The notes under the pieces were generated by a model that was not told the DNA's origin, searched no databases, and saw nothing but the letters and a program-made list of their open reading frames with translations. From NCBI GenBank assembly GCA_022841745.1, contig JALHQW010000006.1, positions 1 through 39,181 of the forward strand: a stretch of 39,181 nt of DNA, in the 5' to 3' direction. This DNA is from Saprospiraceae bacterium. GTDB taxonomy: Bacteria > Bacteroidota > Bacteroidia > Chitinophagales > Saprospiraceae. Within the stretch, counting starts at the first letter, position 1. Each line of letters begins with the position of its first letter. The translations under genes were made by a program, and so were the position numbers. Of the stretch, positions 23,829-39,181 are shown piece by piece.

Positions 23829-26216
23829 CTATGATTTAGTTGCCATTTCTACGCTCATTCTCGCCATCAGGTAACTCAGTGTGGACTCGGCACCTTGGTT
23901 GAGGTTCACGTTCAATTCCTCCAACCCATCATAGCAGCCGCCCGTGCAGGGGTTATAAATGATTTGGTGCAGGTGGTTGTTGCCCAGGAACCAGTTGAAG
24001 GCGGTCGCCTTTTTTTGGGCATAATCCTCTTCCTTGAAAACAGCGTAAAACCGCTCCAATGCGAGGATGGTATAGGCGATGTCTATCGGCTGCTCGGCGC
24101 CTTTTATCAGTGGCAGTGGCTCCCGGCCCTTGTACATCCAGCCCATGTTGGAGATGACTTTGATGCCCCCCTCCTTGAACGTGAGCGACAGTAGGAAATC
24201 GAGGGACGCCTTTGCGGTTTCCTTGTAAACGGGGTTTCCGGTCGCTTGCCAGGCACAGAGCATGGCTTCCGGCAGGATGGCGTTGGCGTAGGTCAGGTAA
24301 CCTTCGTACCACTTCCACTTATGCCCCGCCTCGTGGCGGTACATCTGCACCAGCCTGTCCGCCAAAACTTGGATGAGTTGCGTGACTTCCGGCGACTGCT
24401 TTTCCCGGTTGAAATAATACAAGCCTTTGATGGAAAAAGCCATGGAACGGGTGGAGTGCATGGCGTCAATTACGGGCAATACCCGTTGCATGATTTCCTC
24501 AGCTTTTACCACTAAATCAGCTGGCAAAATGGCGCTTTTTGAAACCAAATAGCCCAATGCCCAGATGGCCCTGCCGTTGGCGTCGGAAAGGTTCGTTTCG
24601 TTGTTTTGTGGAGTAAAATGGCGGACGCTGTCCACGTAGTTCAGGAAATCGCCAGTGGGCTGCTGGCAGAATCCGATAAAATCCAAGTAGGTGCTAATCA
24701 GCCCCAAATCAGCCCAGTCGCCAGACCACTCATAGTGCATGATCAGGGCCACCAAAGCCCGTGCATTGTCGTCGAGCGTATAGCCAGATTCCAGGTCGGG
24801 TTGGTTGATTTTTGAAAACTGTATCATGCCGACCGCCGTGGTCATTTTCTGAACATGCGCCAAGTTGATGGCAGGCAGGCGGTATTCCAGCGGGATGTTT
24901 TCGGTCTGGGGGACAGCTTTTGCGGGCTGGTGCTTGCCCCTGTTTTGGGTCACAGCCTCGCCCAGCGTTTGTCCAGCGACTTTTTGCAAAAGCGATGCAT
25001 GTGCAATCGCCGAGTTCTCCCAGGAAGTAGGCACGATGCGCTGCAAAGTGCTGGTGCTGAAGGCGCTGCGCAACGGCTCGTCGCCCATCAGACGGTTGAC
25101 GGCATCGGCCAACTGCTTCGGGTTTTGGAAGTCAACGAGGATGCCCGTGTGCTGGCGAAGCACCTCCTTGGCATGGGGAATCGGCGTGGAAATAATGGGG
25201 CAGCCACAGCTCATGGCATACGAAAATGTGCCGCTCACCGCCTGGTAGCGATCCTTGGAGGTGAACAGGTAGATGTCGGTCATTTGCAGGTACTCCAGCA
25301 AATCCGGCAAGGGAAGGTAGCGGTTGATGAATTTTACGTGCGATTGGAGCGAGAGGGCCTCCACCTTCGCTTCCAGCATGTCCCGGTAGGCTTCGCCCTG
25401 TGATTTCACCACGTTGGGGTGCGTTTTCCCGATGACGAGGAACAGTGCATCCGGGTTTGATTCGATGATGGCGGGCAGCGAGTCCAGCGTGGTTTCGATG
25501 CCCTTGCCGGAACTGAGCAGGCCAAAAGTGGACAAGACTTTTCGGCCCGTGAAGCCATATTTTCCTTTCAGAACATCCTTGTCCAAGTGCGGCACGAGGT
25601 GCGTGCCGTGCGCTATGACCTCTATTTTTTGCGCAGGAACGCCATAGTCGTCTTTCAGTATTTTTTGGGAGTTTTTGGTCATCACCACGATGGCAGCGCA
25701 GGCCGCCGCCAAGTGCTTGACCTTTGCCTTCATGGCTTCGTCGGGCTTGGGCAAAACGGTATGAAAAACAAGGATGACCGGTTTGGTGAGGGTGTAAAGG
25801 AACTGGAGGAGCGCCTCTTCGCCAGCTTCCTGAAAAAAGCCAAACTCATGCTGCAACAAGATGAATTTGGTGTCGGCATCACCATTGATGGTATTTGCCA
25901 AATCGATGTATTTCCCGGCATCAGTGGTGTCGAGCACATATTTCACTTCGTCAGGGTAAACGTAGTCGTTTGCCCCTGCCTCCAGTGCACTTACTTTCAT
26001 CGAAAAAGAATTGAGGAACTTATTGTCGAGCGCCTTGAGCAAATCCTGCGAATAGGTGGCAATGCCGCATTCCCTCGGTGGGTAAGAAGTGATAATCAAG
26101 ATTTCGGGTAAGTCATCGTTTGGGAGCTTCCTTTCGGGCTGCCTATCGCTCAATGATGCTGTAGAAAATTGAGCTTGTGCCATGTGTTGAGGCCATAAAA
26201 CGGTTTCATTGTTCAT
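23829..26216 (-). CDS. GT4-like glycosyltransferase fused to a helical barrel
   Basis: A 795-residue cytoplasmic protein. Residues about 38-420 form a GT-B fold of GT4 type (ILIITSYPPRECGIATYS, then FGLLSSGKGIETTL with K238, then a second Rossmann half). Residues about 455-795 are helical with barrel-like repeats (YTLDDNARALVAL, then GRAIWALGYLVSK and NLNQGAESTLSYLMAR). The usual GT4 catalytic E-x7-E before AMxCG is absent: the segment reads QAVSGTFSYAMSCGCP, with Gln325 and Tyr333 at the two Glu positions. I start at ATG 26216. It converges with the GH130 gene, and the two may act on related mannosides. The lost glutamates leave donor chemistry open. Confidence 0.8.
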   Translation of the reverse strand: MNNETVLWPQHMAQAQFSTASLSDRQPERKLPNDDLPEILIITSYPPRECGIATYSQDLLKALDNKFLNSFSMKVSALEAGANDYVYPDEVKYVLDTTDAGKYIDLANTINGDADTKFILLQHEFGFFQEAGEEALLQFLYTLTKPVILVFHTVLPKPDEAMKAKVKHLAAACAAIVVMTKNSQKILKDDYGVPAQKIEVIAHGTHLVPHLDKDVLKGKYGFTGRKVLSTFGLLSSGKGIETTLDSLPAIIESNPDALFLVIGKTHPNVVKSQGEAYRDMLEAKVEALSLQSHVKFINRYLPLPDLLEYLQMTDIYLFTSKDRYQAVSGTFSYAMSCGCPIISTPIPHAKEVLRQHTGILVDFQNPKQLADAVNRLMGDEPLRSAFSTSTLQRIVPTSWENSAIAHASLLQKVAGQTLGEAVTQNRGKHQPAKAVPQTENIPLEYRLPAINLAHVQKMTTAVGMIQFSKINQPDLESGYTLDDNARALVALIMHYEWSGDWADLGLISTYLDFIGFCQQPTGDFLNYVDSVRHFTPQNNETNLSDANGRAIWALGYLVSKSAILPADLVVKAEEIMQRVLPVIDAMHSTRSMAFSIKGLYYFNREKQSPEVTQLIQVLADRLVQMYRHEAGHKWKWYEGYLTYANAILPEAMLCAWQATGNPVYKETAKASLDFLLSLTFKEGGIKVISNMGWMYKGREPLPLIKGAEQPIDIAYTILALERFYAVFKEEDYAQKKATAFNWFLGNNHLHQIIYNPCTGGCYDGLEELNVNLNQGAESTLSYLMARMSVEMATKS

Positions 26217-26415
26217 TTTCCGGTATTTGAATAATGGCTCATACAAACGCAATACCCGATGCTGGAATAATTGCTCTTGCTGACCGCCCGGTAGAAAAGG
26301 TGGACGCCCTCTCCCTCCCTTGCGGCAGGGTTCAGGACGCCTTCATTTTCAAAGCCGAGCATGGTTTTTTGGAGGATGGCCCCGTGCTTTTTGACTTAAA
26401 TCATGGGTTTGCAGC

Positions 26416-26586
26416 TCAGGTCTTGGGTGTTGGTTTGCCATCCGGTTTTGAGCCGAAAACATGGAGTCCGGGCTTGTCCGCCCCACCCTTTCCTTCCATT
26501 TTATAGGAAGATTGCACTTTTTCCTTTCCACCCGTTTTGCTAGCTGGGGCTTTCTTTTTGTCCTTACTTCCTTTGTCCTTGCTCAT
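26416..26586 (-). CDS. Small Lys/Gly/Ser-rich protein (56 aa)
   Basis: A short gene encoding 56 residues, beginning MSKDKGSKDKKKAPASKTGG and ending KPDGKPTPKT. It is highly basic, probably disordered, with YKMEGKGG in the middle. Small Bacteroidota proteins of this look (MSKxx, KKAPA, SxYK) exist near stress genes, but no function is known to me. Coding is supported by the start 58 bases downstream of a TTTG -7 element, and by a 32-bp upstream block that is 28/32 identical to the block preceding the csbD-like gene. It lies upstream of the GT4-like gene but is separated by about 200 bases. Confidence 0.65.
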   Translation of the reverse strand: MSKDKGSKDKKKAPASKTGGKEKVQSSYKMEGKGGADKPGLHVFGSKPDGKPTPKT

Positions 26587-26623: not shown

Positions 26624-26639
26624 GTGAACGAATTTTCAC
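26624..26639 (-). promoter_or_regulatory. Palindromic site in the leader of the Lys-rich gene
   Basis: GTGAACGAATTTTCAC has 5-bp arms GTGAA/TTCAC. It is repeated upstream of the CsbD gene at 28464-28479 at the same distance from the -7. It would fall at or just after the transcription start, suiting an operator. Confidence 0.5.
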
Positions 26640-26643
26640 CCTA

Positions 26644-26699
26644 CAAAGGTGAGGGTTTGGGCATTGGGCTATGTTACACTTTAGTTGTAAATCGTTACA
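26644..26699 (-). promoter_or_regulatory. TGTAAC/TTTG promoter of the Lys-rich gene
   Basis: On the minus strand TGTAAC (26694-26699) and TGTAAC (26673-26678) lie 21 bp apart, then 25 bases, then TTTG (26644-26647) in CACCTTTG. The same layout precedes the HMA-AraC gene, and the proximal half precedes CsbD. Confidence 0.65.
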
Positions 26700-26703
26700 T
26701 CAT

Positions 26704-26928
26704 TCACATATTTGAAGGCTTTTTCCCGGCTTGTTCAAAGGCAGTTAATTGTTCCACAAGCGACGCCAGATATTCCTCGAAATCTACGCTGCTAACGCCC
26801 TTCTGTTTGTCGAACATGAACAAGGGTGTTTCACTTAAATACCGATAATGCTCTGGGAACTCCATTTGAATCTTCGCAGTTGCCCGGAGGATTGCGGTTA
26901 TCAATTTCTGTGGTGGAGGTATATTCAT
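26704..26928 (-). CDS. Conserved small Bacteroidota protein (74 aa)
   Basis: A 74-residue soluble protein. It matches a family of short Bacteroidota proteins I know only as hypothetical: an N-terminal PPPQKLITAILRATAKI helix, FPEHYRYLSETPLF, then DFEEYLASLVEQLTAFE. No signal peptide or catalytic motif. The stop codon overlaps the distal promoter element of the Lys-rich gene. It lies 63 bases downstream of the coiled-coil lipoprotein gene, past that gene's terminator. Confidence 0.65.
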   Translation of the reverse strand: MNIPPPQKLITAILRATAKIQMEFPEHYRYLSETPLFMFDKQKGVSSVDFEEYLASLVEQLTAFEQAGKKPSNM

Positions 26929-26942
26929 GTTTTATGTCGGCA

Positions 26943-26970
26943 ATAAAAAAAGGCGGGCAATATGCCCGCT
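26943..26970 (-). terminator. Intrinsic terminator of the coiled-coil lipoprotein gene
   Basis: GCGGGCA (26953-26959) pairs with TGCCCGC (26963-26969) over a 3-base loop. On the minus strand a run of seven T follows directly. It lies 22 bases past the stop at 26992. Confidence 0.8.
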
Positions 26971-26991
26971 CAGCTATTCACCTGGTAGAAT

Positions 26992-27435
26992 CTATTTTTT
27001 ATTGTTGACGGTCAGGTCCTTCAAGGCGTTACCAAGTTCATCCATATCATGGTTGAACTCCCGCTTGAACGATTCCCAGTTCTCTTTTCCCTCGTCCTTG
27101 TAATCGTCCATTTTGACTTTCAAGTCCTTGTTTTTCTGTTCCAGCTCGGTTATTTTCTTTTCGTAATCAGCCTTCACGTCCTTTTTCTCGTTGGCGATTT
27201 TTGCTTTAAGGGCCACAATACTTGAGTCATTGGCAGCAATTGCGTCCGCCTTTTCCCTTCGGTAGGCTTCAATGTCGGCAAGGTATTCGGCATTGGCTTC
27301 ATCCAAAGCTTTGTTGGCTTCAGTGACATCTTCTTGGGCTTCGTCCACCTTTTTTTCGGAAGACTGACAGCCACTAAAAAGGGCAAACGCTACCAGCAGG
27401 ATTGACACGGCAAGCGTGGAAATTGAATTTTTCAT
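26992..27435 (-). CDS. Coiled-coil stress lipoprotein (sll1863-like)
   Basis: A 147-residue lipoprotein: signal peptide and lipobox with acyl Cys23 (ALFSGCQSS), then an almost continuous charged coiled coil (about 28-147) rich in Lys, Glu and Ala. The segments KKVDEAQEDVTEANKALDEA and ENWESFKREFNHDMDELGNA match Bacteroidota proteins annotated as sll1863-family stress response proteins. It is probably attached to the outer membrane and extends into the periplasm. It stands among other stress-type genes (CsbD, Lys-rich protein) and has its own terminator. The function is not established. Confidence 0.7.
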   Translation of the reverse strand: MKNSISTLAVSILLVAFALFSGCQSSEKKVDEAQEDVTEANKALDEANAEYLADIEAYRREKADAIAANDSSIVALKAKIANEKKDVKADYEKKITELEQKNKDLKVKMDDYKDEGKENWESFKREFNHDMDELGNALKDLTVNNKK

Positions 27436-27487
27436 TTTTTTCTTTTTAAAAATTTATAGTTGGAAATTTGGGGCTGGTACTCTATTG

Positions 27488-27625
27488 TCAGAACAAGAAA
27501 GACAACCCGATATAACCCGAATTGGATTTTGTATGGGCTTTGTCCAGCACATAGTAGGAGTCGTTGTCGAGGCTGTTGTTGTCATCGCTGATGTCAAACA
27601 GGCCACGAACGCCTCGGTATCCCAT
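27488..27625 (-). pseudogene. C-terminal remnant of an outer-membrane beta-barrel protein
   Basis: The 27436-27741 spacer contains a 45-codon stretch, MGYRGVRGLFDISDDNN to SGYIGLSFLF, which reads like the last two strands of a porin-type barrel with the terminal Phe. The frame extends upstream to 27709, but the added residues lack a signal peptide and look random. It is best read as the leftover 3' end of a deleted gene. A short real gene is less likely. Confidence 0.4.
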
Positions 27626-27741
27626 GCTCAAAACTTGGCGGCGTGAGGTATAAACACCATAAAACATTATGTGCAAAAAGGCTTTCGAAAAAGCAGTGCA
27701 TGCACACATATATTGTGGCTATGATTTTATGAGGCTTAAAA

Positions 27742-28185
27742 TCAGAAGTTGTTGGTCGCCAATACAACTACTGAGCTAGCGTATTGGACGTTGGCGTCGT
27801 CTTCGGCTGTGATAAATATTTTGGTGGGCTTAAATGCGGAAGACGTTTTAAAGCTGGCTTTTAGTTTATTGGAAAATGCGCCGGAACTGCTTTCCATCTG
27901 CCCGATGTTTTTGGTCATTTTCTGGTCCGTGACCATCCACACCACATACGTCTTCTTTGGGGGTAGCAGCCGCGCTGGTTCAGCCAAATTGACAATGTCC
28001 ATCTGAATGACGTAGTTCTTGTTATTGTCCCTTGTCACCTTGACGTCGCCCCTCGCAGCCGGAACGACCGAGGAGGTTAAAAATGCAGCTTTTGTAGAAC
28101 ACGAAGTACATAATGATATCACCAATATTGCGGAAAAGCCAAAAAGCAATATATTCAGTGGTTTGCTTGCCATGCTAAGGTTCAT
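27742..28185 (-). CDS. Lipoprotein with RskA-C-like domain
   Basis: A 147-residue exported protein, start at 28185 (an internal Met follows four codons later). A hydrophobic signal segment (10-27) ends in Cys-rich LCTSCS, probably a lipobox. The rest (40-147) is one beta domain: GDVKVTRDNNKNYVIQMDIV, then LPPKKTYVVWMVTDQ, then a closing strand pair ITAEDDANVQYASSVVVLA. This layout resembles the C-terminal domain of RskA-type anti-sigma factors (YVVWxV, then G, then xxTAE), but without an N-terminal zinc-binding region. The similarity is by eye. It lies between CsbD and the coiled-coil lipoprotein. Confidence 0.6.
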   Translation of the reverse strand: MNLSMASKPLNILLFGFSAILVISLCTSCSTKAAFLTSSVVPAARGDVKVTRDNNKNYVIQMDIVNLAEPARLLPPKKTYVVWMVTDQKMTKNIGQMESSSGAFSNKLKASFKTSSAFKPTKIFITAEDDANVQYASSVVVLATNNF

Positions 28186-28205
28186 TTAATAAGTTTTAAA
28201 AGCGT

Positions 28206-28242
28206 AAACAAACCGTTAAGCGGCTTGCTTAACGGTTTGTTT
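28206..28242 (-). terminator. 16-bp perfect hairpin after csbD-like gene
   Basis: 28206-28221 and 28227-28242 are perfect 16-bp arms with a 5-base loop. It lies 18 bases past the CsbD stop and upstream of the next minus-strand gene, so it should terminate or attenuate CsbD transcription. The T-rich part lies inside the stem. Confidence 0.65.
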
Positions 28243-28260
28243 TTCTGGGAAAACGGATGC

Positions 28261-28446
28261 CTACAGTGAAGCTATGATTTCGGCAAATTCTTCCTTGGAC
28301 TTTCCAAGCTTTACCTGGATTTTGCCTAGCATCTCTTCTTTTTTGCCTTGATCGTACATCAGGTCATTGTCTGTCAGTTCAGCAAATTTCTGCTTGAGCT
28401 TGCCTTTTTGCTCGTTCCAGTTTCCTTTTACGATGGTAGTATTCAT
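28261..28446 (-). CDS. CsbD-family stress protein
   Basis: A 61-residue soluble protein of the CsbD family, general-stress proteins of unknown biochemical role. Family marks: VKGNWNEQKGKLKQKFAELT at 6-25 (the usual GxWNExKGKxKQKxGxLTxxD) and GKIQVKLGKSKEEF at 41-54. Length is typical. It is preceded by the TGTAAC-N25-TTTG promoter and the GTGAA/TTCAC palindrome shared with the 56-residue Lys-rich protein gene, so the two are probably co-regulated. Confidence 0.9.
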   Translation of the reverse strand: MNTTIVKGNWNEQKGKLKQKFAELTDNDLMYDQGKKEEMLGKIQVKLGKSKEEFAEIIASL

Positions 28447-28463
28447 TGTCTGATTGATTTAAT

Positions 28464-28479
28464 GTGAATGAATTTTCAC
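28464..28479 (-). promoter_or_regulatory. Palindromic site in the csbD leader
   Basis: GTGAATGAATTTTCAC, 13 of 16 positions shared in order with the 26624 copy apart from one clear substitution and neighbouring spacer changes. It lies 17 bases before the ATG and just downstream of the predicted transcription start. Confidence 0.5.
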
Positions 28480-28483
28480 AATG

Positions 28484-28518
28484 CAAAGGTGAGGGCATTA
28501 AAGCTGGTAGGCGTTACA
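28484..28518 (-). promoter_or_regulatory. TGTAAC/TTTG promoter of csbD
   Basis: On the minus strand TGTAAC (28513-28518), then 25 bases, then TTTG (28484-28487) in CACCTTTG. The distal TGTAA copy seen at the other two promoters is degenerate here (3 of 6 positions). Confidence 0.6.
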
Positions 28519-28569
28519 GAAAATTTTGGATTAATTGCGTATATCTCACATTGGGTGGGGTTGATATGA

Positions 28570-28604
28570 GGTTGATAAGGGTTGAAAATCAACCTTTATC
28601 AACC
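28570..28604 (-). terminator. Hairpin after the response-regulator gene
   Basis: 28570-28585 pairs with 28589-28604 (16 bp, one G-T wobble, 3-base loop), 10 bases past the stop of the kinase/response-regulator operon. There is no clean U-run. Confidence 0.6.
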
Positions 28605-28614
28605 CCAAAAAGCC

Positions 28615-29049
28615 TCACATCCGCTCCATGTACCAATTCAGTTCCTTTTCCATTTTTTTGTAGCGGAAAATAGTGGTGATAGTTTTTTGCAGCCGCATAA
28701 AGGCCGTTTCGCTTTTCACCACATAATCGAATGCCCGGTGGTGCATGCAATTGACGGCCACGTCAATGCTGTCTTGGGACGAGAGCATTATCACGGGAAT
28801 ATCGGGATTGAAGGCTTTTATCTTGTCCAAAGTCTCTATGCCGTTCACGGCATTGATCACGATGCCGTCGAGGTGATAGTCCAAAATAATGACGTCGGGT
28901 TCGTTGGATAAATGCGCCAGGCACAGCTCGCCCGTCGGGTAGGTTTCCACCTCAAAATCTGCATGTTCCAGAAATTCAATGGCCAATAATTTCAAAAAAA
29001 CGGCATCGTCGTCCACCAAAAACAGCTTTATTTTAGCTTGAGCTTTCAT
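28615..29049 (-). CDS. Single-domain response regulator
   Basis: A 144-residue receiver protein without an output domain. Acidic cluster D13-D15, phospho-acceptor D57 (VIILDYHLD), Ser90/Ser91 at the switch position and Lys112 (YVVKSE) are all present, so phosphorylation should work. About 25 extra helical residues follow. The start ATG overlaps the TGA of the large hybrid kinase gene (ATGA), which indicates translational coupling and makes that kinase the probable phosphodonor. Such CheY-like proteins pass phosphate on or bind a target protein; the target is unknown. Confidence 0.92.
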   Translation of the reverse strand: MKAQAKIKLFLVDDDAVFLKLLAIEFLEHADFEVETYPTGELCLAHLSNEPDVIILDYHLDGIVINAVNGIETLDKIKAFNPDIPVIMLSSQDSIDVAVNCMHHRAFDYVVKSETAFMRLQKTITTIFRYKKMEKELNWYMERM

Positions 29050-32000
29050 ATTTGAATGTTTTTAATCCGGTTAAACTCTTCTTCCAATTCCCTGCAAGCC
29101 TCCAGGCATACGTTCTCCAATTGCGTGACCATTTCTAGGATGGCATCCGCCTCTTGCTGCGACTTGGCAAATTCCTGCACTTTTTTGGCCATGCTCTCAA
29201 AATCGTTGCTAATGCCCATGATGGAGAACGACGGTATCATCTTATGCACGGCGGCGTAGAGCGAATCCCAGTCTTTATCTTGTGCGCTTTTCTTCATGGC
29301 GCTTATGAGCGGCGGCGTTTGCTCCAAATAGGCATTAATCATTTCCATGATTAAATTCGGGTTGTTTTTCGTGCGTTGAGTCAGGTATTCGAGGTCGGTA
29401 TATCGTTGCTTTTTTATTGGTTTTATCTCGTTTGGTATTTCAATGACAGCTGTGGATGGCTTCTTCACCAGCCCGACTATTTTGCTGTACAGCAGGCGCT
29501 CGTCCACGGGTTTTGCGATATAATCGTTCATGCCCACCGCCTTGCATTTCTCCAAATCAACCGTGGTGACGTCGGCGGTGAGTGCGATGATGGGGATTTT
29601 GGAGTGCAATTCGTTGCGGATATATTCCGTCGCCTCAAACCCGTTCATTTCGGGCATGTGCAAGTCCATGAGGATAATATCATAGGAATTAAGTTGCAGT
29701 TTTTCGATGGCAATGCGGCCATTGTCGGCGATGTCCCGCTCGAAGCCGAAATCATTGAGCAGCGTTTTCATCAGCAACTGGTTGAGGGCCATGTCTTCCA
29801 CCACCAGCACTTTGATGCCAAGGGGCTCTGTTTCCTCTTCGAAAATGAATGTATCCAGTGCTGAGGTGTCACTGGTTTTCTTAAAACACAGGACAAAGCG
29901 AAAAACAGAGCCTTCGTCCACCTTGCTTATTACCCCGATGCTGCCGCCCTGTTGCTCCACCAATTGTTTGGCGATGGCCAAGCCCAAGCCCGTGCCCCCA
30001 AAAAGCCTTGCCGTGGAACTCGATGCCTGTTGGAAGTTCTCGAAAATCTTTTCCTTTATGCTGTCCGCTATCCCGATGCCCGTGTCCGCTATCGAAAATT
30101 CGAGCGTGGCACTTTCTGCGTCTTCCTCCAACAGCTTCACGCTCACCGTGATGCTCCCTTTTTCGGTAAATTTGACCGCATTGCTCACGAGGTTCATGAT
30201 AATCTGGTGCAGGCGCACAGGGTCGCCCACCAGCACCTTCGGGATGTTGTGGTCGTATTCCTTCACTAGTTCCAGGTTTTTCTCTTGGATTTTCGCCTCG
30301 AACAAATGCAACATGGAGGATATGGACTGCGCCAACTTGAACCGGGTCTGCTCGAAGGTCATTTTCCCGGCATCCACTTTTGCGAGGTCGAGTATATCGT
30401 TGATGAGCACGATGAGCGCATCGCCGCTCATTTTTATGGCGGTCAGGTATTCCTTTTGCTTGGCCGACAATTCGGTTTTCAGCATCACCTTCGTGAAGCC
30501 GATGATGGCATTCATGGGCGTGCGAATCTCGTGGCTCATGTTCGACAAAAACTGCTGTTTCGACTTCACGGCGTCCTCGGCGATATGTGCGGCTGCCATG
30601 GCCTTGTTTTTTTGATCTTCGGCAGTCCCCATCGCCAATTCAGCGAATATCTTCGCCTCTATCAATTCGGTTTCAAACATTCTTTGGTCGGTGATATCCC
30701 TTGCCACCATCACGGCCCCCATGACTTCCCCTTTTTCATCTTTATAGACTGAGCCATTGAACAGCAGGTTGGTTTGCTTTTCGTCCTTGAAGGTGAGCGG
30801 AAAATCCACCACGAAGCCCTTTGCAAACACCTCCTTATAGACTTGGCGGGCATCTTCTGGTTCGGTGAAATAATCAAAAAAGTAAGTGCCAGCAAGGGCT
30901 TCCCGTGCAATGCCAATCATATCTAAGGTCGCTTGGTTCATGTCCATGATTTTGCCTTCGGCATTGATGGTCCACAATGGGTCGAGGCTGGCTTCAATCA
31001 GGCTGCGGGAATATTCCGTCAGTAATTGCGCTTTGGCAAGCAGTAATTCCCGTTGTTTTTCTTCCAGTTCTTTGTTAGCTTCCAATAGCTCCAAGGTTCG
31101 GCTCGAAACCGCTTTTTCCAATTCTTCTTTTTGTGCTTTCTGCCCCTGTATCTCCGTTTTGGAGCCTATCCACATCTTAACGCTACCATGTTCATCCTTT
31201 AGGGCCACTGCTTGCGTGAGGTGCCACAAATACTTTCCATCTTTACGGAGGAACCTGTTCTCCGACTCATAGTCCTTCCCTGTCCTGACGGATTCCTCCC
31301 AATGCTTTTTGTTTTTTGCCCAATCTTCAGGATGTATGATTTTTTCCCAACCATCATCTTTTAATTCTTCAAAAGTCATCCCTACATAGTCGAGTAGCGT
31401 TTTATTAAAATAGTTCTTGTTGCCCTGCGAATCGGCAGTCCATACTTTTTGAGGCAGTAACTCTGACAATTGCCGAAATTTATTTTCGCTCTCCTCCACT
31501 TTATTTCTTGCACTAACCTGTTCCGTAATATCAAAAATCATATTGATTGCCCCTATCAATTCACCATTTAAACCAAACTCGGGGTGGGGATGAACCAGCA
31601 CATTGGACCGGGTGCCATCCTGCCTTTCAAGAATAAATTCTCCGCCGAATACCGAAATACCTTCTTTTAATGTTCTGGCCATTGGAGCTTTATCTGAAGG
31701 AACCAATGAGCCATCTATGTTGAAAAATATAAAATTACTATCCCATTTGTCCTTGCCTATTACAGGTTTGTAGCCCCAAAATTTTGCGAGGGTATCGTTG
31801 TAAAAGGTCAGGTACCCCTGCGTATCGCATGAATACACAGCGGCGGGCAATCCCTTTACAAGCTGCCTGAAATGCTCGCTGGTTTTATCCAAGACTTCCT
31901 GCGCTTTTTTACGCTCCGTTATATCGTCAATGGACAGCAGGATTAATTTCTCCAAACTGTTTTTGTTGATTACCTCACGTGCATTCAACAACATCACCCG

Positions 32001-34484
32001 CTCGCCAATATTGGTAAAAGTATGCGTAACCTCGAAATCGTTGAACACGGACTTTTCGGGGAGTATTTTTTCGAGCAGCGTGCGCAATGCTGGAATGTCC
32101 CATTGTTTGTTGCCAATATCATAAATCAAAACACCTTCTGTCTCCAGTTCATTTACCCGAAATGTTTTATAAAAAGCATTATTGGCCGTTTTTATCCGTA
32201 GGTTTTTGTCCAGCACCAGCAGGGGTTCCCGAATATTTACAAGAATGGCTTCGGCATAGTCCCGGGCGGTGGTCACCTGTTCGTTCAGGGCAATCATTTC
32301 CTGGTTCACGACAATAAGCTCCTCGTTGGTGCTTTGCAGTTCTTCCTTGCCGGTCTCCAGTTCCTCGTTCAGGCTCTGTAGTTCCTCGCTCCCGCTGAGT
32401 AGCTCTTCGTTGGCGCTTTGCAGTTCTTCGTTGGCGGCCTCCTGGTCTTCGGTGATGCTGTGCATGTCTTCCCGGGCTTGCGCAAGCTCCTGTTCCAATT
32501 GTTGTATGCGCAAATCCCTTTCATCTTTTGTGTTTTCGCCGGGCGATTTTTCGTCAAGGGTCAATGACAGCTGGGTGCTAATGGACGTGTCGTGAAAAAG
32601 CACCAAATAATAAGGCTCAATGGTATTGGGCAGCGGCATGGCTTCGATATTTATGTAGCGAAGGCTGCCGTTTATTTCGATTGGTATGTTTTCCTTTATA
32701 ACTGGGGCATTTTCCTTTTTTGTTTTGTGCAAAATATTGCGCAGCTCAAAGGCCAAGCCGTTTTTTGCCATTTGTATTAGATTGTGGGTAGGCTTGCCCG
32801 ACGATTGTTCAAGGAAACTGCTGGTATTGCCCCTGAAATGCACAATGTCCAGGGTCTCGTTTACGACCACGCCGGCAGGGGTATATTTGCGGAGCAAAAT
32901 ATCATCCGCTGTTTTTTGAAAGTCGGTGCGGATATTTTCACTGCTAAGGTTGGCATTGGGATGGTTGAAAGGCTGTTCACTTCGCTGGCTTGCCACGTGC
33001 AAAAACCTGCCTGGCGTGTCTTTGCGTGAGTATAATTTATCGTTCTTGGCTGCCGAGGCAAAAAGGTCAGGCACACCACTGGTGGTTTCCGATTTTCCGA
33101 GCAGTAAAAACCCTTTTGGGTTCAGTGCATAATGAAAGGTGGTTAGCGCCTTTTTTTGCAAATAAGGCTCCATGTATATCAGCACGTTGCGGCAGCTGAT
33201 TAAATCCATTTTGCCAAAAGGCGGGTCTTTTAAAAAATTGTGCTGCGCAAACACGCATATATCCCGCACATTTTTGTTCACTTGATAACTGCCGTTGGTT
33301 TTTGTGAAAAAATTATTCAGTCGCTCTGGGCTTACTGCATTTAGTTCGCTTTTTTTATAAATGCCCCGCCGTGCTTTTGCGATGGCAGGTTCACTAATAT
33401 CCGTGGCGAAAATCTGCACAAACCGCTGATGACTTCCAAAATATTCCTTTAAACAAATAGCTATGGAATAGGCTTCTTCACCCGTGCTGCATCCCGCCAC
33501 CCAAACACGGATGGGTTCGCCGGAAGTCTTGTTTTTTGCGGCCAGCAGAAAAACGTTTTCGCACAAGTTTTCAAAGGATTTTTCGTCCCTAAAAAAAGAA
33601 GTCACTGGTATCAGCAAGTCTTGGAACAACAAATCCTGTTCGGCCTTATTTTCCCTTAAAAATTGAAGGTATTTGGGTGGCGTTTCATTTTTGCTCAGGC
33701 CCATCCTGCGCAGTATGCGGCGGTGTATCGTGGACTGTTTGTAATAGGTAAAATCGGTTCCCTTTCGGATGCGCAATAGGGCAATAATCTGTTTGAGAAC
33801 CGCATCATCTTGCAACGATAAATGCTCCTCGTCAAGGTTAATGCCTAAAATTTCGTGAATTTTTTGAGGAATCTGTTCTGGGGGTAAAATAAAGTCAACC
33901 ACACCTGCCTGTGCCGCATTTTGAGGCATGCTGCCGTATGCCGCCGATGCTTCATCCTGCGCAAACGTGATGCCGCCGTGGTCTTTGATGGCTTTCAGCC
34001 CCAGTGTGCCATCGCTGGCCGTACCCGACAATACCACCCCGATGGCATGTGCATGGTGTACTTCGGCCAGGGAGGTGAAAAACAGGTCAATGGGCAGGTT
34101 GCGCTCGGTCTTGCTTTTGGGTGGGCGTGGCGAGAGCAGCAAAACCCCATCCGTGGCCACCATCATTTTATTACTGGGTATGACGTAAATATGGTTGGGC
34201 AACACCTTAATATCGTCAGTGATTTCCAAGACCGGTATGTTGGTCACTTTTTGCAGTAGTTCGGGCAACATGCTTTCGTGGGTGGGGTCCAAATGTTGCA
34301 CCAGCACATAGGCCATGCCCGAGTCTTCGGGAATGGCCTTCAGGAGTTTCTTAAAGGCGTCCAGCCCGCCTGCCGAGGCACCAATTCCCACCACGGGGAA
34401 CAGGTTTGCGGATTTTATCAGCTTATCCTTTGGTGGCAAGGGCGCTGCATCCGCTTTTTTCAGTCTGTCATTCTTCTCATTCAT
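29046..34484 (-). CDS. CheB-CheR-PAS hybrid histidine kinase with REC and Hpt
   Basis: An 1812-residue cytoplasmic phosphorelay protein. Order: CheB methylesterase (about 28-212; S37, H64 and D158 of the catalytic triad are present), CheR methyltransferase (about 222-485; VWVAGCSTGEEA at 327-338, SCRNVLIYM at 430-438), and a first PAS-like region (525-640). A long coiled coil with EELQSxNEEL repeats follows (655-740), then PAS domains (about 745-860, 865-990, 1000-1115, 1155-1270). HisKA is next (H1318 in SNMSHEIRTP), then HATPase (N-box near 1431-1435, GTGLGLA at 1497-1503), REC (E1563/D1564, D1607, K1658) and Hpt (H1747 in VHKMIPSFSIMG). No TM segments. All relay residues are intact. It is followed by a coupled receiver and preceded by an HMA-AraC gene. 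Confidence 0.93.
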   Translation of the reverse strand: MNEKNDRLKKADAAPLPPKDKLIKSANLFPVVGIGASAGGLDAFKKLLKAIPEDSGMAYVLVQHLDPTHESMLPELLQKVTNIPVLEITDDIKVLPNHIYVIPSNKMMVATDGVLLLSPRPPKSKTERNLPIDLFFTSLAEVHHAHAIGVVLSGTASDGTLGLKAIKDHGGITFAQDEASAAYGSMPQNAAQAGVVDFILPPEQIPQKIHEILGINLDEEHLSLQDDAVLKQIIALLRIRKGTDFTYYKQSTIHRRILRRMGLSKNETPPKYLQFLRENKAEQDLLFQDLLIPVTSFFRDEKSFENLCENVFLLAAKNKTSGEPIRVWVAGCSTGEEAYSIAICLKEYFGSHQRFVQIFATDISEPAIAKARRGIYKKSELNAVSPERLNNFFTKTNGSYQVNKNVRDICVFAQHNFLKDPPFGKMDLISCRNVLIYMEPYLQKKALTTFHYALNPKGFLLLGKSETTSGVPDLFASAAKNDKLYSRKDTPGRFLHVASQRSEQPFNHPNANLSSENIRTDFQKTADDILLRKYTPAGVVVNETLDIVHFRGNTSSFLEQSSGKPTHNLIQMAKNGLAFELRNILHKTKKENAPVIKENIPIEINGSLRYINIEAMPLPNTIEPYYLVLFHDTSISTQLSLTLDEKSPGENTKDERDLRIQQLEQELAQAREDMHSITEDQEAANEELQSANEELLSGSEELQSLNEELETGKEELQSTNEELIVVNQEMIALNEQVTTARDYAEAILVNIREPLLVLDKNLRIKTANNAFYKTFRVNELETEGVLIYDIGNKQWDIPALRTLLEKILPEKSVFNDFEVTHTFTNIGERVMLLNAREVINKNSLEKLILLSIDDITERKKAQEVLDKTSEHFRQLVKGLPAAVYSCDTQGYLTFYNDTLAKFWGYKPVIGKDKWDSNFIFFNIDGSLVPSDKAPMARTLKEGISVFGGEFILERQDGTRSNVLVHPHPEFGLNGELIGAINMIFDITEQVSARNKVEESENKFRQLSELLPQKVWTADSQGNKNYFNKTLLDYVGMTFEELKDDGWEKIIHPEDWAKNKKHWEESVRTGKDYESENRFLRKDGKYLWHLTQAVALKDEHGSVKMWIGSKTEIQGQKAQKEELEKAVSSRTLELLEANKELEEKQRELLLAKAQLLTEYSRSLIEASLDPLWTINAEGKIMDMNQATLDMIGIAREALAGTYFFDYFTEPEDARQVYKEVFAKGFVVDFPLTFKDEKQTNLLFNGSVYKDEKGEVMGAVMVARDITDQRMFETELIEAKIFAELAMGTAEDQKNKAMAAAHIAEDAVKSKQQFLSNMSHEIRTPMNAIIGFTKVMLKTELSAKQKEYLTAIKMSGDALIVLINDILDLAKVDAGKMTFEQTRFKLAQSISSMLHLFEAKIQEKNLELVKEYDHNIPKVLVGDPVRLHQIIMNLVSNAVKFTEKGSITVSVKLLEEDAESATLEFSIADTGIGIADSIKEKIFENFQQASSSTARLFGGTGLGLAIAKQLVEQQGGSIGVISKVDEGSVFRFVLCFKKTSDTSALDTFIFEEETEPLGIKVLVVEDMALNQLLMKTLLNDFGFERDIADNGRIAIEKLQLNSYDIILMDLHMPEMNGFEATEYIRNELHSKIPIIALTADVTTVDLEKCKAVGMNDYIAKPVDERLLYSKIVGLVKKPSTAVIEIPNEIKPIKKQRYTDLEYLTQRTKNNPNLIMEMINAYLEQTPPLISAMKKSAQDKDWDSLYAAVHKMIPSFSIMGISNDFESMAKKVQEFAKSQQEADAILEMVTQLENVCLEACRELEEEFNRIKNIQI

Positions 34485-34555
34485 GGGACAAAAGTTGGCA
34501 AATAGATTTGCATGACGGCTGCTTGTTTTAGGTCATTAATTTCAATTGTTTTGTG

Positions 34556-35134
34556 TTAGTTTTCAGGAAGGTTCCCAACCTCCTCAATCGGGCTACGCCT
34601 TTTATCCTTTAATTGCTTGAAATGCGTGGGGGTAAGCCCTGTCATTTTTTTAAATTGATTGGACAAATGTGCCACGCTGCTGTAATTCATTTTCCAGGCA
34701 ATTTCCGAGATATTCAGTTCGCCGTAGGTAATCAGTTCCTTTATCCGCTCGATTTTATGTGCGATGATGAACTGCCCGATGGTGGTCCCTTGCACTTCCG
34801 AGAATAGGTTGGCGAGGTAGGTGTAGTCGTAGTGAAGCTTTTCGCTCAGGTAATCGGAGAAGTTGGTCTTGAGGTTTTCGTCGGCGTGGTGTACCATCTC
34901 AATGATGGCGTTTTTTATCCTTTCAATCAAAATCCCTCTCCTGTCGTCCATGAGTTCCAGCCCGGAGAGCAGCAAGTTGGCTTTTAGTTGCGCCCGCTGC
35001 TCCTGGGAGAGGTCTTCCATAATTTCCACTTCGCCGAGGTCCACCACGATGAAGTGCAGCCCGAGGTTTTTCAACACTTCCTTAACCGCTAATTTACAGC
35101 GGTTGCTGACCATGTATTTGATGAAAATTTTCAA
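34556..35134 (-). CDS. AraC-family regulator with HMA-like N-terminus
   Basis: A 192-residue regulator. I choose the TTG at 35134: family members start M-K-(I/L)-(F/Y)-IKxMVxxRC, and here the TTG codon sits exactly there (TTG AAA ATT TTC). The promoter -7 lies at 35157-35160, so upstream starts are excluded. Residues 1-70 form a ferredoxin-like HMA-type fold (VSNRCKLAVKEVL, one Cys of the usual CxxC retained), followed by a linker. An AraC HTH domain follows at about 95-180 (YTYLANLFSEVQGTTIGQFI, ISEIAWKMNYSSVAHLSNQF). It lies 71 bases upstream of the hybrid kinase. Its promoter shares the 21-bp-spaced TGTAA repeat with the Lys-rich gene, so autoregulation is likely. Confidence 0.82.
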   Translation of the reverse strand: MKIFIKYMVSNRCKLAVKEVLKNLGLHFIVVDLGEVEIMEDLSQEQRAQLKANLLLSGLELMDDRRGILIERIKNAIIEMVHHADENLKTNFSDYLSEKLHYDYTYLANLFSEVQGTTIGQFIIAHKIERIKELITYGELNISEIAWKMNYSSVAHLSNQFKKMTGLTPTHFKQLKDKRRSPIEEVGNLPEN

Positions 35135-35156
35135 AGAAGGTTTTTGAATCGAAGAA

Positions 35157-35212
35157 CAAAGTTCCCAATAATAAAACAGGGCTTCGTTACACAAAGTTGG
35201 GCAAGGCTTACA
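35157..35212 (-). promoter_or_regulatory. TGTAAC/TTTG promoter of the HMA-AraC gene
   Basis: On the minus strand TGTAAG (35207-35212) and TGTAAC (35186-35191) lie 21 bp apart, then 25 bases, then TTTG (35157-35160). A 19-bp block around the distal element (35208-35226) matches 26695-26713 at 18 positions. The start codon follows 22 bases after the -7. Confidence 0.65.
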
Positions 35213-35295
35213 TCATTCACACATTTACGTAAATTGCTTTTGTTGCTAATCGCAAAACAGAACGTGTAAAGCAGCATCACGCACAGCCACCACGA

Positions 35296-35371: not shown

Positions 35372-38300
35372 TCAATTGCTGTGCATGATAACCACGACTT
35401 TCGTATGCACTTCCTGATTGGTTTTCACCTGAACCAGATAGCTCCCTTCCTGTACTTTTGCCATGTCAATCGTGTGGGTGTTCGAACCCTTTTGAGCATT
35501 TATTTTATCGAAAAATACGACCTTTCCCAAAAAGTTGGAGACGCTGAACTCAACCTGGTCTTCTATGGATGATTCAAACCCAAGGTTGAAATTGCGGTTG
35601 GCAGGGTTTGGCCATAGTTCTATTTGTCGGAGGTCGTCTTCCTTGATGTCAGTTGACACGCCTGCGCCCGGAAATCCTGTTGGCTCACCCAATGATTTTT
35701 CCAAAGAGAAGAGGCAACTCACCGTCGTCATGCACATAGAAACGCAGCCATTGGCATCGGTCACGGTCAGGATTATTTTTGCATCCGACCAGCCAATGTA
35801 AATATTGATTTCCGGCGTTCCTTGCCCTCCCTGTATAAAGCAATTCTCCCCAACTATCTCCCATTCGTAGGTGAATGGCCCATTCCCACCTGTAGTGATG
35901 CTGCCTATCACGATGCCGTGCGTATTGCAGTACACCGTGTCGGGCACGATGATGATGCACTCCAGGAAGGTGTCTGGTATCCATTTTATGGTTTGGACAT
36001 AGACCGTAACATTGCCGCATACATCTGTGGCAACCCACGTCCTAGTCACTATGAATTCTCCGGGCACACCACCAGGTTCAATGACTTCCGTATAGGTGAT
36101 TTTTACGGGCTGGGATTCACCCTCCACTATCACGATTGGGGCGGGTGGCAGTTCTACGCACACTATCAGGGCTTCATAGGGAACCGCTACAATGACAGGT
36201 GGAATATCGTCCATGATATTGACGGTGAACGATAAAGAAGCCGTATTGCCACATGCATCAGTTGCCGTCCAGGTATAGCGCCGCTGTTCGTAATAGCCAA
36301 GGATATAGCAATCTTCTGCATAGCTGATTGTTACCGTAAGCACTGGAATGATGACTTGGCCACAATCATTTATAATGGTAACACTATTTGCGTTTAATCC
36401 ATTTAATTGGTCCATCAATGCAGTTTCCGATAAAAACACAAGGTTGTTTAAATTGCCATAGTATAGGAGAATAATGGAAAGGTCTGGCACTATTATCACA
36501 GGCGGTGTGGTGTCGTTCAGAATAATTGATTGGTGGACGATGGTTGTGTCGCCACAAATACCGACGGCGCTCCATGTCCTGTCTATGACCAAACCGCCGC
36601 AGGGCACTTCTAAGGTATCCTCTTCCATGATAACATCAACCAACGCATCCGCACATGCATCATACGCCGTCACGACCGGGACGGTAATATCGTCGCAAAT
36701 AATTGGTAAAACACCTGTAATGACTGGTCCACTTCCATCACCTACATGAATGGTTTGGGATTCGGTAGTCGTATTGCCGCATAGGTCGGTTGCTGTTATG
36801 ATGCGTTGCAGTTCATATTCATAAATGCAGTCGCTGGGAATGATGGTGTCCCAAGTCGTTAAGGCCACCTCGCCACAATTATCCGTTACCACTATTTCAG
36901 GCAACGCAGCATTGCAGGCAATGGTCATTTCTGGTAGGAAGTTGAGGAACACAGGACTGGATTCATCCACAATATTGGCAATGACCATCAGCTCGCTGAG
37001 ATTTCCGCAGATGTCAGTTGCCGTCCAACGCAATTGTACCACTGCTACTATGCCATTGGAAGCACAGTCGCCAGCAGCCATCAGGGTTTCGGTAAAATTC
37101 ACCGTGATACCTGCTGCGCATCCATCGGCCACGCCTACGTCATTGATGCCAAACGAAGTATATTGCCCATTGTACGCTGCGCAATCCATTGTCAGCACTT
37201 CTCCACCCCCCATTTCCGCCAATACCGGGTTCGTGAACCAAATCATTGGCGCCACATTGTCATTTGGTAGGAGTATGCTGGTGGCAGTTGCAATATTTCC
37301 ACAGCCATCATTCGCCTCATAAGTTCTTAGAATAGCCTTGCCGTTTCCGCAGGGGCTTAAGGTTTGACTATCCTGGTATGCTATCGTCGGTGTCCCGCAG
37401 TCATCTGTAGCATATACCTGGTTCAAAGTGTCCCCTATGCAAGCTATCGGCGTGATGCCAAATATTACAGGGGGCTGATGGTCGGTCAGGCGGGCCTTGA
37501 TGGTCAGCGACGACGTGTTTCCACATGCATCCACCGCCGTCCAATGGTAAGTCCTTTGCTCCACATAGCCATCCAGTTCACAGTTGTCTGCGAGCACGGG
37601 CACCATATTAAAGGTCAGCATGAAAGAAGCGCCACATGAATTTGGGGCCAATACAAATTCCTCGTTCAGATAGTCGAGGTAAGTTGGAAAGCCATCGCTG
37701 CAAGGGTATTCGAGGATGGTGTCCCCCGTGATGCCCATTATTTCGGGCAACATGACGAACCAAGCTGGGCCTTCCTCATCAATAAGCGTGATGGTCTGCG
37801 TCGCGGTGGTCGTATTGCCACATTGGTCTTTTGCAGTCCACGACCGCAGTATCACCTGGCCATCCTGGCATCCCGGCACCGTCAAGGTTTCCTCAAAAGA
37901 AAGGATACAAGCGCAAAGGCATTCATCCACGCCATATATATTGGCGGGCGGTTCAGGTATTTCGTCGCAATTGACGGAAATATCGAAGGGAACGCCCTGG
38001 ATTGTTGGGGCAATGGTGTCTATCAATGCCATGAAAATGAACGCACTGCTGCTGTTCCCACATATATCGGTGGCCGTCCAGGTCAAGCGATACAAGTTGA
38101 TAAAACCATCCACCTCGCATTCGCCTTCCTGCTCCAACGCCTCATCGAAGGTAACGGTTACTTCACCTGCACATAGATCGGTCGCAAGGATGCTGCCTTC
38201 GTCAAAAGTCGGGAGGCTCCATCCGGGGTCTTGCCCAAAGCACTGGACCTGGATAGTACCACCGGGCACAAACAGCGGATTGACAAAGGCGATGGTGGGC

Positions 38301-39181
38301 GGCGTATTGTCAAATACCGTAATCACTTGCGAACAGGTAGAAGCATTGCCGCAGGCGTCCATAGCCCGGTAAATCCTTGTCAGTACATATTGGTTTTCGC
38401 AGGTTTGGTTGGTGATATTTCCACTTTGAAGGGTCACGGTTATTGGCCCACTGCAATTGTCCGTTGCAACGATCAGCGCAGGATTGGCCACAGGTACTTG
38501 GTTGGCGCATTGAACAGCCATGTTTGGTGGGCAAACAATAACGGGCGGTACCAAGTCTTGTACTATCAAAGTTTGGAGACAACTGCTGCTGTTTCCACAA
38601 CCGTCCGAAGCAGTCCAGGTGCGGGCGATCGTAAATGATTGCGGGCAAGTTCCCGGCGTAGTTACGTCATTGTAAACTACAATTGGCGAAGGGTTGCAAT
38701 TGTCCGTTGCAGTGGCAATGCCAGTGCCTGGCGGCAATAGGCCCCCATCACATGCTATTGTCAAGCTGGGTGGGCAGACGAGAATGGGCGCTGTATTATC
38801 TGATACGATGATGCTTTGCATGCAATTGCTGCTGTTGCCACATGCGTCAGTGGCCACCCAAGTGCGGATAATTGTAAACTCCTGCGGACAAATTCCGGCA
38901 GTGGTGGCGTCGGTAAAGCCAACAATTGGAGCAGTATCGCAATTGTCCGTAACGGTCGGTGTACCTGTGCCTGGCGGCAGGGTGCTACCGTTGCAGTCCA
39001 CCGAGGCGTTGGCTGGGCATGTTAAAATTGGTGGGGTGTTGTCCGAAACGATAATGCTTTGCATGCAATTGCTGCTGTTGCCACATGCATCAGTGGCCAC
39101 CCAAGTGCGGATAATTGTAAACTCCTGCGGACAAATTCCGGCAGTGGTGGCGTCGGTAAAGCCAACAATTGGAGCAGTATC
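35372..39181 (-). CDS. Giant HYR-like repeat adhesin, T9SS-secreted (5' end missing)
   Basis: The frame is open to the right edge, so the true start and signal peptide lie outside. The visible 1269 residues hold 13 modules of about 80 residues carrying the WxAxDxCGNxx signature, each with DNTPPxIxCP-like linkers, as in HYR/Ig-like repeats of Bacteroidota surface proteins. Cys residues recur at fixed positions and may form intramodule disulfides. After the last module come a PKD-like segment (about 35810-35930, TYEWEIVGENC) and a type A T9SS sorting domain (about 35375-35640, ELWPNPANRNF to VIMHSN). It is a secreted or surface-attached adhesin. Modules near the right edge are almost identical at DNA level. 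It is unrelated in function to the kinase cluster as far as seen. Confidence 0.88.
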   Translation of the reverse strand, partial: DTAPIVGFTDATTAGICPQEFTIIRTWVATDACGNSSNCMQSIIVSDNTPPILTCPANASVDCNGSTLPPGTGTPTVTDNCDTAPIVGFTDATTAGICPQEFTIIRTWVATDACGNSSNCMQSIIVSDNTAPILVCPPSLTIACDGGLLPPGTGIATATDNCNPSPIVVYNDVTTPGTCPQSFTIARTWTASDGCGNSSSCLQTLIVQDLVPPVIVCPPNMAVQCANQVPVANPALIVATDNCSGPITVTLQSGNITNQTCENQYVLTRIYRAMDACGNASTCSQVITVFDNTPPTIAFVNPLFVPGGTIQVQCFGQDPGWSLPTFDEGSILATDLCAGEVTVTFDEALEQEGECEVDGFINLYRLTWTATDICGNSSSAFIFMALIDTIAPTIQGVPFDISVNCDEIPEPPANIYGVDECLCACILSFEETLTVPGCQDGQVILRSWTAKDQCGNTTTATQTITLIDEEGPAWFVMLPEIMGITGDTILEYPCSDGFPTYLDYLNEEFVLAPNSCGASFMLTFNMVPVLADNCELDGYVEQRTYHWTAVDACGNTSSLTIKARLTDHQPPVIFGITPIACIGDTLNQVYATDDCGTPTIAYQDSQTLSPCGNGKAILRTYEANDGCGNIATATSILLPNDNVAPMIWFTNPVLAEMGGGEVLTMDCAAYNGQYTSFGINDVGVADGCAAGITVNFTETLMAAGDCASNGIVAVVQLRWTATDICGNLSELMVIANIVDESSPVFLNFLPEMTIACNAALPEIVVTDNCGEVALTTWDTIIPSDCIYEYELQRIITATDLCGNTTTESQTIHVGDGSGPVITGVLPIICDDITVPVVTAYDACADALVDVIMEEDTLEVPCGGLVIDRTWSAVGICGDTTIVHQSIILNDTTPPVIIVPDLSIILLYYGNLNNLVFLSETALMDQLNGLNANSVTIINDCGQVIIPVLTVTISYAEDCYILGYYEQRRYTWTATDACGNTASLSFTVNIMDDIPPVIVAVPYEALIVCVELPPAPIVIVEGESQPVKITYTEVIEPGGVPGEFIVTRTWVATDVCGNVTVYVQTIKWIPDTFLECIIIVPDTVYCNTHGIVIGSITTGGNGPFTYEWEIVGENCFIQGGQGTPEINIYIGWSDAKIILTVTDANGCVSMCMTTVSCLFSLEKSLGEPTGFPGAGVSTDIKEDDLRQIELWPNPANRNFNLGFESSIEDQVEFSVSNFLGKVVFFDKINAQKGSNTHTIDMAKVQEGSYLVQVKTNQEVHTKVVVIMHSN
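38811..39181 (-). repeat. 243-bp tandem repeat inside the adhesin
   Basis: 38811-38938 and 39054-39181 are identical at 127 of 128 positions, offset 243 bp (81 codons). The second copy runs off the window. A further diverged copy lies at about 38570-38810. This is a recent in-frame duplication of one HYR-like module. Confidence 0.9.

Follow-up and report, generated by a model that had tools for sequence, protein, structure and literature searches.

A promoter element shared by three genes

What joins the promoters of a putative regulator, a csbD gene and a small lysine-rich gene in the 39,181-nucleotide stretch of Saprospiraceae DNA analysed here (the window)? The original prediction was a three-promoter stress regulon built on the motif TGTAAC-N25-TTTG, and three exact copies are indeed present, at 26644-26678, 28484-28518 and 35157-35191, all on the minus strand. 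Shuffled versions of the window contain 0.17 such copies on average and none of 100 reaches three. When one mismatch is allowed, the window holds four copies against 2.86 expected, an ordinary figure (35 of 100 shuffles are equally high), and across the genome (8.43 Mb) the short motif gives 17 matches against 32 for the reversed pattern. This lack of enrichment tells against the short form by the measure that the prediction had set for itself, namely scatter at random positions genome-wide. The extended form described below withstands the same test, with 12 genome matches against 0 for the reversed pattern. Could the three short matches be a coincidence? The flat genome count and the ordinary one-mismatch count would suit that explanation, but all three copies sit in 42-bp sites called by a matrix trained elsewhere, for which the reversed controls give 0, and the whole-genome scan with the long pattern, together with the matrix scan, already contradicts it; we give chance almost no weight.

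The shared site is real, but the motif as first stated is a fragment, namely the portion of a longer operator that lies nearest the promoter. A line-up of promoters on the same contig (C6) revealed further copies with a common ATGTGAATGATGCAA block, and Bacteroidota relatives have similar blocks in front of AraC and the genes around it. Derived from 50 distinct sites, the extended consensus is AATGTGTGAATNATGTAAC-N12-TTATGTAACAC-N19-CAYCTTTG. Its half-sites are spaced 21 bp apart, TGTAA standing at positions 9 and 30, and TTTG stands at 61. The additional TGTAA 21 bp further up and the 19-bp block with 18 of 19 identical positions (AAATATGTGAATGATGTAA versus AAATGTGTGAATGATGTAA) were both found as described for the 56-aa lysine-rich gene and the AraC gene, and with a spacing of 20-22 for the upstream copy these two are the sole matches in the genome. 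The upstream half had been assigned to two of the three promoters; it is there, but csbD also carries a degenerate one at the right spacing.

The scanning matrix was trained on 50 distinct AraC-promoter sites of other genomes, none from this genome. It calls operators on the minus strand at 35184..35225 for the AraC gene (site 35221, score 39.2, TTTG of the -7 box at 35157-35160), at 26671..26712 for the 56-aa gene (site 26708, score 36.4, TTTG at 26644-26647) and at 28511..28552 for csbD (site 28548, score 26.8, degenerate distal half-site, TTTG at 28484-28487). Within C6:1-76000 there are 12 sites, all on the minus strand and within 44 kb, against 0 in the reversed control. The three predicted promoters belong to the regulon, but it extends to at least 12 promoters on this contig. 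As to the long mismatch pattern, 11 of its 12 genome matches share one strand within C6:26.6-70.8 kb; the twelfth, at C6:183318, has 3 mismatches and unread bases. The weaker csbD site is called by the matrix only. No operator site was found in C6:76001-96000 (L135 and L165). A second csbD of the genome (C12) was rejected as a target, as it has a core score of -18.9 and no operator.

The same scan of 80 loci from the best 80 of 360 relatives (1.28 Mb) gives 222-231 matches at thresholds from 26 to 12 and 0 with the reversed matrix. At a threshold of 18, 227 sites occur in 75 of these 80 loci, which with the 12 sites here makes 239. Matches in AraC promoters are circular because the matrix was trained on them, but the other 184 sites are not AraC promoters and escape this circularity. 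Of the 239 sites, 218 keep the exact distance to the -7 box. The box reads TTTG in 189 of the 239 and TTTA in 42, and the median distance from TTTG to ATG is 46 nt. Among the 227 sites in the best 80 of 360 relatives, 212 have the orientation of AraC. None falls in the first 3 kb downstream of the AraC start, where the kinase is encoded, and 124 fall in the next 7 kb.

The operator and its probable AraC-type regulator

Which protein would act on this operator? In our reading, a stress-gene island begins in the window and is governed by a single local HMA-AraC activator that acts through the shared operator; we give this reading a probability of roughly 0.78. The 192-aa protein would bind directly to two direct half-sites TTATGTAAC, 21 bp or two helical turns apart, together with the flanking TGTGAAT, and would act on its own promoter as well as on a series of genes for small stress and envelope proteins, arranged singly or in short operons. 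An operator in the regulator's own promoter, as predicted, is borne out by the sequence here and in 55 of the best 80 of 360 relatives (composite match upstream of AraC with at most 4 mismatches), against 0 of 80 for the reversed and 5 of 80 for the reverse-complemented pattern; the latter five could be genuine operators of divergent genes. Most of the AraC-promoter matches in relatives lie 104-119 nt before the MVS codon, and 25 of the best 80 of 360, including Lutibacter and some Flavobacterium, have no such match within 4 mismatches. By sequence, autoregulation through the operator is strongly supported.

Across 296 Bacteroidota genomes, the pattern matches in 146 and an AraC homologue is found at E 1e-20 in 142. 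Site number per genome rises with the closeness of that homologue: the 12 genomes whose best homologue has an E value up to 1e-70 average 8.50 matches (0.58 reversed), and the following groups of 37, 73 and 20 genomes average 4.59 (0.43), 1.55 (0.42) and 1.55 (0.35), respectively. The 154 genomes without a homologue still average 0.52 matches against 0.18 reversed (80 against 28 in total), an excess that tells against a perfect link between operator and AraC. Seven of them have at least 4 matches, and in six of the seven every match has 3 mismatches. In a draft genome (G192) three 1-mismatch sites occur and no AraC was found; two of the sites are near contig ends, and in loci L228 and L229 of this genome two contigs end within about 150 bases after an operator site, in common sequence. 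At the level of sequence, the operator, its geometry, its conservation, its location in the island and its tie to this AraC family are established.

The regulator gene (34556..35134, minus strand) encodes an HMA-like (SxxC) domain and an AraC-type helix-turn-helix; its TTG start is inferred from relatives, which begin (M/L)KLYIKYMVSxRC. The double helix-turn-helix is recognised by Pfam HTH_18 (E 1.8e-17, 63.8 bits against a cut-off of 33.6), and the best PDB sequence matches span this part only. Pfam HMA gave no match at E 0.001. The structure model (pLDDT 89) pairs an N-terminal beta-alpha-beta-beta-alpha(-beta) domain with the AraC-type domain. In Foldseek, AraC domains rank at the top (6swi, E 6.1e-5), MarA and SoxS are also matched, and lower ranks contain the copper chaperones CopZ (6ff2, TM 0.66 by target length) and Atx1 (2xmt, TM 0.68 by target length), both at E 0.058-0.087, with chaperone matches overall at E 0.06-0.09 and target TM 0.66-0.70. 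The N-terminus is thus predicted to adopt the ferredoxin-like HMA fold of copper chaperones, and the model upholds the HMA-AraC label on which Pfam is silent. CopZ and Atx1 share the predicted beta-alpha-beta-beta-alpha-beta fold, but the regulator is fused to a DNA-binding domain and has Ser for the first metal-binding Cys: the MxCxxC site reads MVSNRC here and MVSxRC in 80 of 80 of the best 80 of 360 relatives.

Are there relatives with an intact metal site? In a non-exhaustive survey of 85 AraC-type genes in 77 loci, with metal neighbours recognised by simple motif search, the chaperone-like site is CxxC in 54 and SxxC in 28. The neighbourhood that would mark a copper-responsive HMA-AraC, an adjacent P-type ATPase or HMA gene, was found for 31 of the 54 CxxC genes and for 0 of the 28 SxxC genes. 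Half-sites paired at 21 bp lie 3' of AraC in 15 of these 31 loci and are absent from the stretch tested in the other 16; in 14 of the 15, TTTG or TTTA follows 30-31 nt beyond the pair. The remaining CxxC loci have the pair in 1 of 23 and lack it in the stretch tested in 22 of 23. One locus (L164) is an exception, with a CxxC gene among Dps and csbD sites. The CxxC proteins beside copper ATPase or HMA genes of Bacteroidota thus have the same domain order and in some cases the same operator layout, but differ in their intact CxxC, their metal neighbours, their half-site (TRTAAATNTTRCAAATC) and the position of the operator 3' of the araC gene. The genome studied here has two such CxxC paralogues itself (L148 on C20 and L149 on C41), each followed by an HMA-domain gene, and one of the 17 short-motif matches lies between the C20 paralogue and its HMA-domain gene. 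A midpoint-rooted tree has two groups (support 100/95), one of 46 CxxC rows and one of 60 rows, of which 49 are SxxC, 8 CxxC and 3 others. The tree does not support a single origin of SxxC, given those 8 CxxC and 3 other rows and at least 4 changes of the label on starred branches. As the root is the midpoint, the direction from Cys to Ser is a presumed one.

These paralogues bear on the idea that another protein, a response regulator or some other factor, binds the sites and merely controls araC and its neighbours. Response-regulator genes are found in the island and among the targets, and the operator consensus contains an inner inverted repeat, AACTT-N7-AAGTT. However, the same layout recurs 3' of diverged CxxC paralogues beside metal genes, outside stress islands, match number drops as AraC diverges, and the receiver gene in the window lacks a DNA-binding domain. 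Another binder is in our judgement unlikely, and we retain the HMA-AraC protein as the candidate.

Promoter architecture

How would the bound protein act? According to PMC9723704, the -7 box of sigma-A promoters (TAnnTTTG) occupies -12 to -5, so that +1 would fall five nt after TTTG; by this reckoning the near half-site would cover roughly -41 to -34. The operator consensus lacks a recognisable -33 TTG where one would be expected, and the near half-site would stand in for it, so that the bound protein would bring sigma-A polymerase to the CAYCTTTG -7 box. Because the near half-site overlaps the -33 region, a bound protein could also block polymerase, as a repressor would. The missing -33 TTG is nevertheless what one expects of activator-dependent promoters, and overlap with the -35/-33 region is usual for class II AraC activators, so we consider repression improbable at these sites. 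Activators of this class (AraC, SoxS and MarA) resemble the proposed system in HTH_18, direct half-sites about two turns apart, a near site at the -35/-33 region and control of their own promoter. Here, direct repeats about two helical turns apart are conserved and tied to the gene, and their binding by the protein is predicted; the differences are an N-terminal domain with an HMA-like fold, where the known proteins have a sugar-binding domain or none, and the Bacteroidota -7 box.

Another conceivable explanation is a promoter for an alternative (ECF) sigma factor, with TGTAAC and TTTG as its two elements. The island contains two ECF sigma factor genes (C6:42029-42550 and C6:47626-48177), one of them 3' of a site, but the conserved part extends about 60 nt upstream of TTTG and includes a 21-bp repeat, unlike a two-element sigma promoter. 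In addition, the CAYC-preceded TTTG agrees with TAnnTTTG, the sigma-A -7 box, at the place given for it in PMC9723704. We regard an ECF promoter as very improbable and keep to a sigma-A promoter served by an activator.

A second feature marks the putative transcript starts. Palindromes lie there in the 56-aa gene (GTGAAAATTCGTTCAC, 26624..26639, minus strand) and in csbD (GTGAAAATTCATTCAC, 28464..28479, minus strand). A perfect inverted repeat of at least 5 bp, starting 2-6 nt after TTTG, is present in 45 of 179 distinct target promoters and absent from 134, compared with a mean of 15.7 (sd 3.7, maximum 28) over 500 arm swaps, a control that ignores the relatedness of promoters. When GTGAA left arms are left out, the count is 24 of 154 (mean 9.8, maximum 19). 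A control window further down contains the repeat in 8 of 179; other TAnnTTTG promoters have it in 21 of 186, and repeats of at least 6 bp in 2 of 186 against 19 of 179 targets. AraC's own promoters show it in 3 of 55; the enrichment is seen in target promoters and not in those of AraC itself. Arms that vary and yet stay paired point to a stem-loop: target transcripts probably often start at a palindrome, with a 5' stem-loop that may have a role of its own. A candidate main element, the palindrome GTGAAAATTCRTTCAC, was discarded, with 125 matches at up to 3 mismatches against 109 reversed; its best four matches (0, 0, 1 and 2 mismatches) are all on this contig.

A stress-gene island and its implications

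Which genes follow the sites? In the window, site 35221 precedes AraC and site 26708 the 56-aa lysine-rich ORF (26416..26586, minus strand), which has no family match and no relative in the loci compared. Site 28548 precedes csbD (28261..28446, minus strand; Pfam CsbD, E 1.6e-13), possibly in an operon with a 147-aa secreted or lipoprotein-like ORF without a family (27742..28185, minus strand); further downstream lies a stress response protein of the sll1863 family (26992..27435, minus strand; NCBIfam NF052504, 49.5 bits, cut-off 35). The remaining sites, again on the minus strand, precede a giant protein with an ice-binding domain (41543), a 100-aa ORF and then a dehydrogenase (44391), an OmpA/glycine-zipper lipoprotein (47489), an ECF sigma gene at some distance, whose assignment is unsure (48409), a receiver protein (48966), a Cys-rich protein (54209; gene C6:53795-54106), a 220-aa ORF without a family (61859), a putative short ORF (68499) and a YtxH protein (70800). 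The Cys-rich protein scores 20.6 bits with DUF326 (cut-off 20.4) and 31.3 bits with TIGR04401 (Csp1 copper storage), below the cut-off of 100; its resemblance to four-helix copper storage proteins is possibly a trace of a copper past.

In the best 80 of 360 relatives, the ORFs after sites cluster into AraC (55), Ig/ice-binding (32), response regulators (19), CsbD (13) and OmpA (13), then a 158-aa secreted family (11), lmo0937 (8), outer-membrane barrels (7), YtxH (5) and Thivi_2564 (4); Dps, universal stress and MlaE-type proteins occur singly or in pairs. The predicted control of stress-type genes is therefore reflected in CsbD, YtxH, Dps, lmo0937-type and OmpA-type genes after one shared promoter element. 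This AraC regulon, as predicted from its sites, is real, conserved and island-centred, with stress-type targets.

What might feed into the regulator? Directly after AraC lies a gene for a CheB-CheR-PAS-histidine kinase-receiver protein (29046..34484, minus strand; Pfam), followed by a stand-alone receiver-domain response regulator (28615..29049, minus strand; Pfam Response_reg). A CheB-CheR kinase had been suggested as possibly acting upstream; what is conserved is the PAS histidine kinase, which in 61 of 65 relative loci with enough sequence is matched on the AraC strand no more than 3.5 kb beyond that gene, but CheB-CheR occurs within that distance in 2 of 65 and was rejected as the defining partner. 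This supports a conserved gene pair of AraC and PAS kinase; a signal may pass from the kinase to the regulator. The observation behind the original prediction is confirmed and its interpretation holds in part: operator, autoregulation and stress content are supported by sequence, while activation, signal and kinase control we infer.

What are the implications for the phylum? To our knowledge, the classical sigma factors for general stress that other phyla use are absent from Bacteroidota. The sigma-B general stress regulon of Firmicutes has overlapping types of target (CsbD, YtxH, Dps and an lmo0937-type membrane protein), but here an AraC-type factor would work at sigma-A-like promoters of genes clustered beside the regulator. 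A search of the open literature, in which one query was blurred by words beginning with 'arac', turned up no account of either the operator or the regulon. We tentatively propose, as a possibility that we hold at less than even odds, that a general stress response of Bacteroidota is run by an AraC-type activator derived from a copper-sensor ancestor, with one ligand Cys changed to Ser and the other invariant, under an adjacent PAS kinase; its regulon would travel as an island, most of whose genes are equipped with an operator each, and the target mRNAs would carry a 5'-terminal stem-loop absent from the regulator mRNA. If so, one protein and one DNA site would make stress control in this large phylum directly accessible, targets could be predicted by scanning, and the case would show how a metal sensor may become a stress regulator through loss of one ligand. 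The HMA-AraC switch is a testable candidate for how Bacteroidota run their stress response.

Two further observations concern the window itself. The ice-binding giant is a secreted ORF of more than 2000 aa that is open from C6 41440 into the window (35372-39100), with repeats after the ice-binding domain. At 26213-26362 (minus strand), a 38-aa stretch resembles the N-terminus of a glycosidase-like gene of about 350 aa in L068, L099, L157 and L050, whose family we take to be GH130; the gene looks truncated, because the remainder is not seen at this locus, and the remnant lies just 5' of a glycosyltransferase gene.
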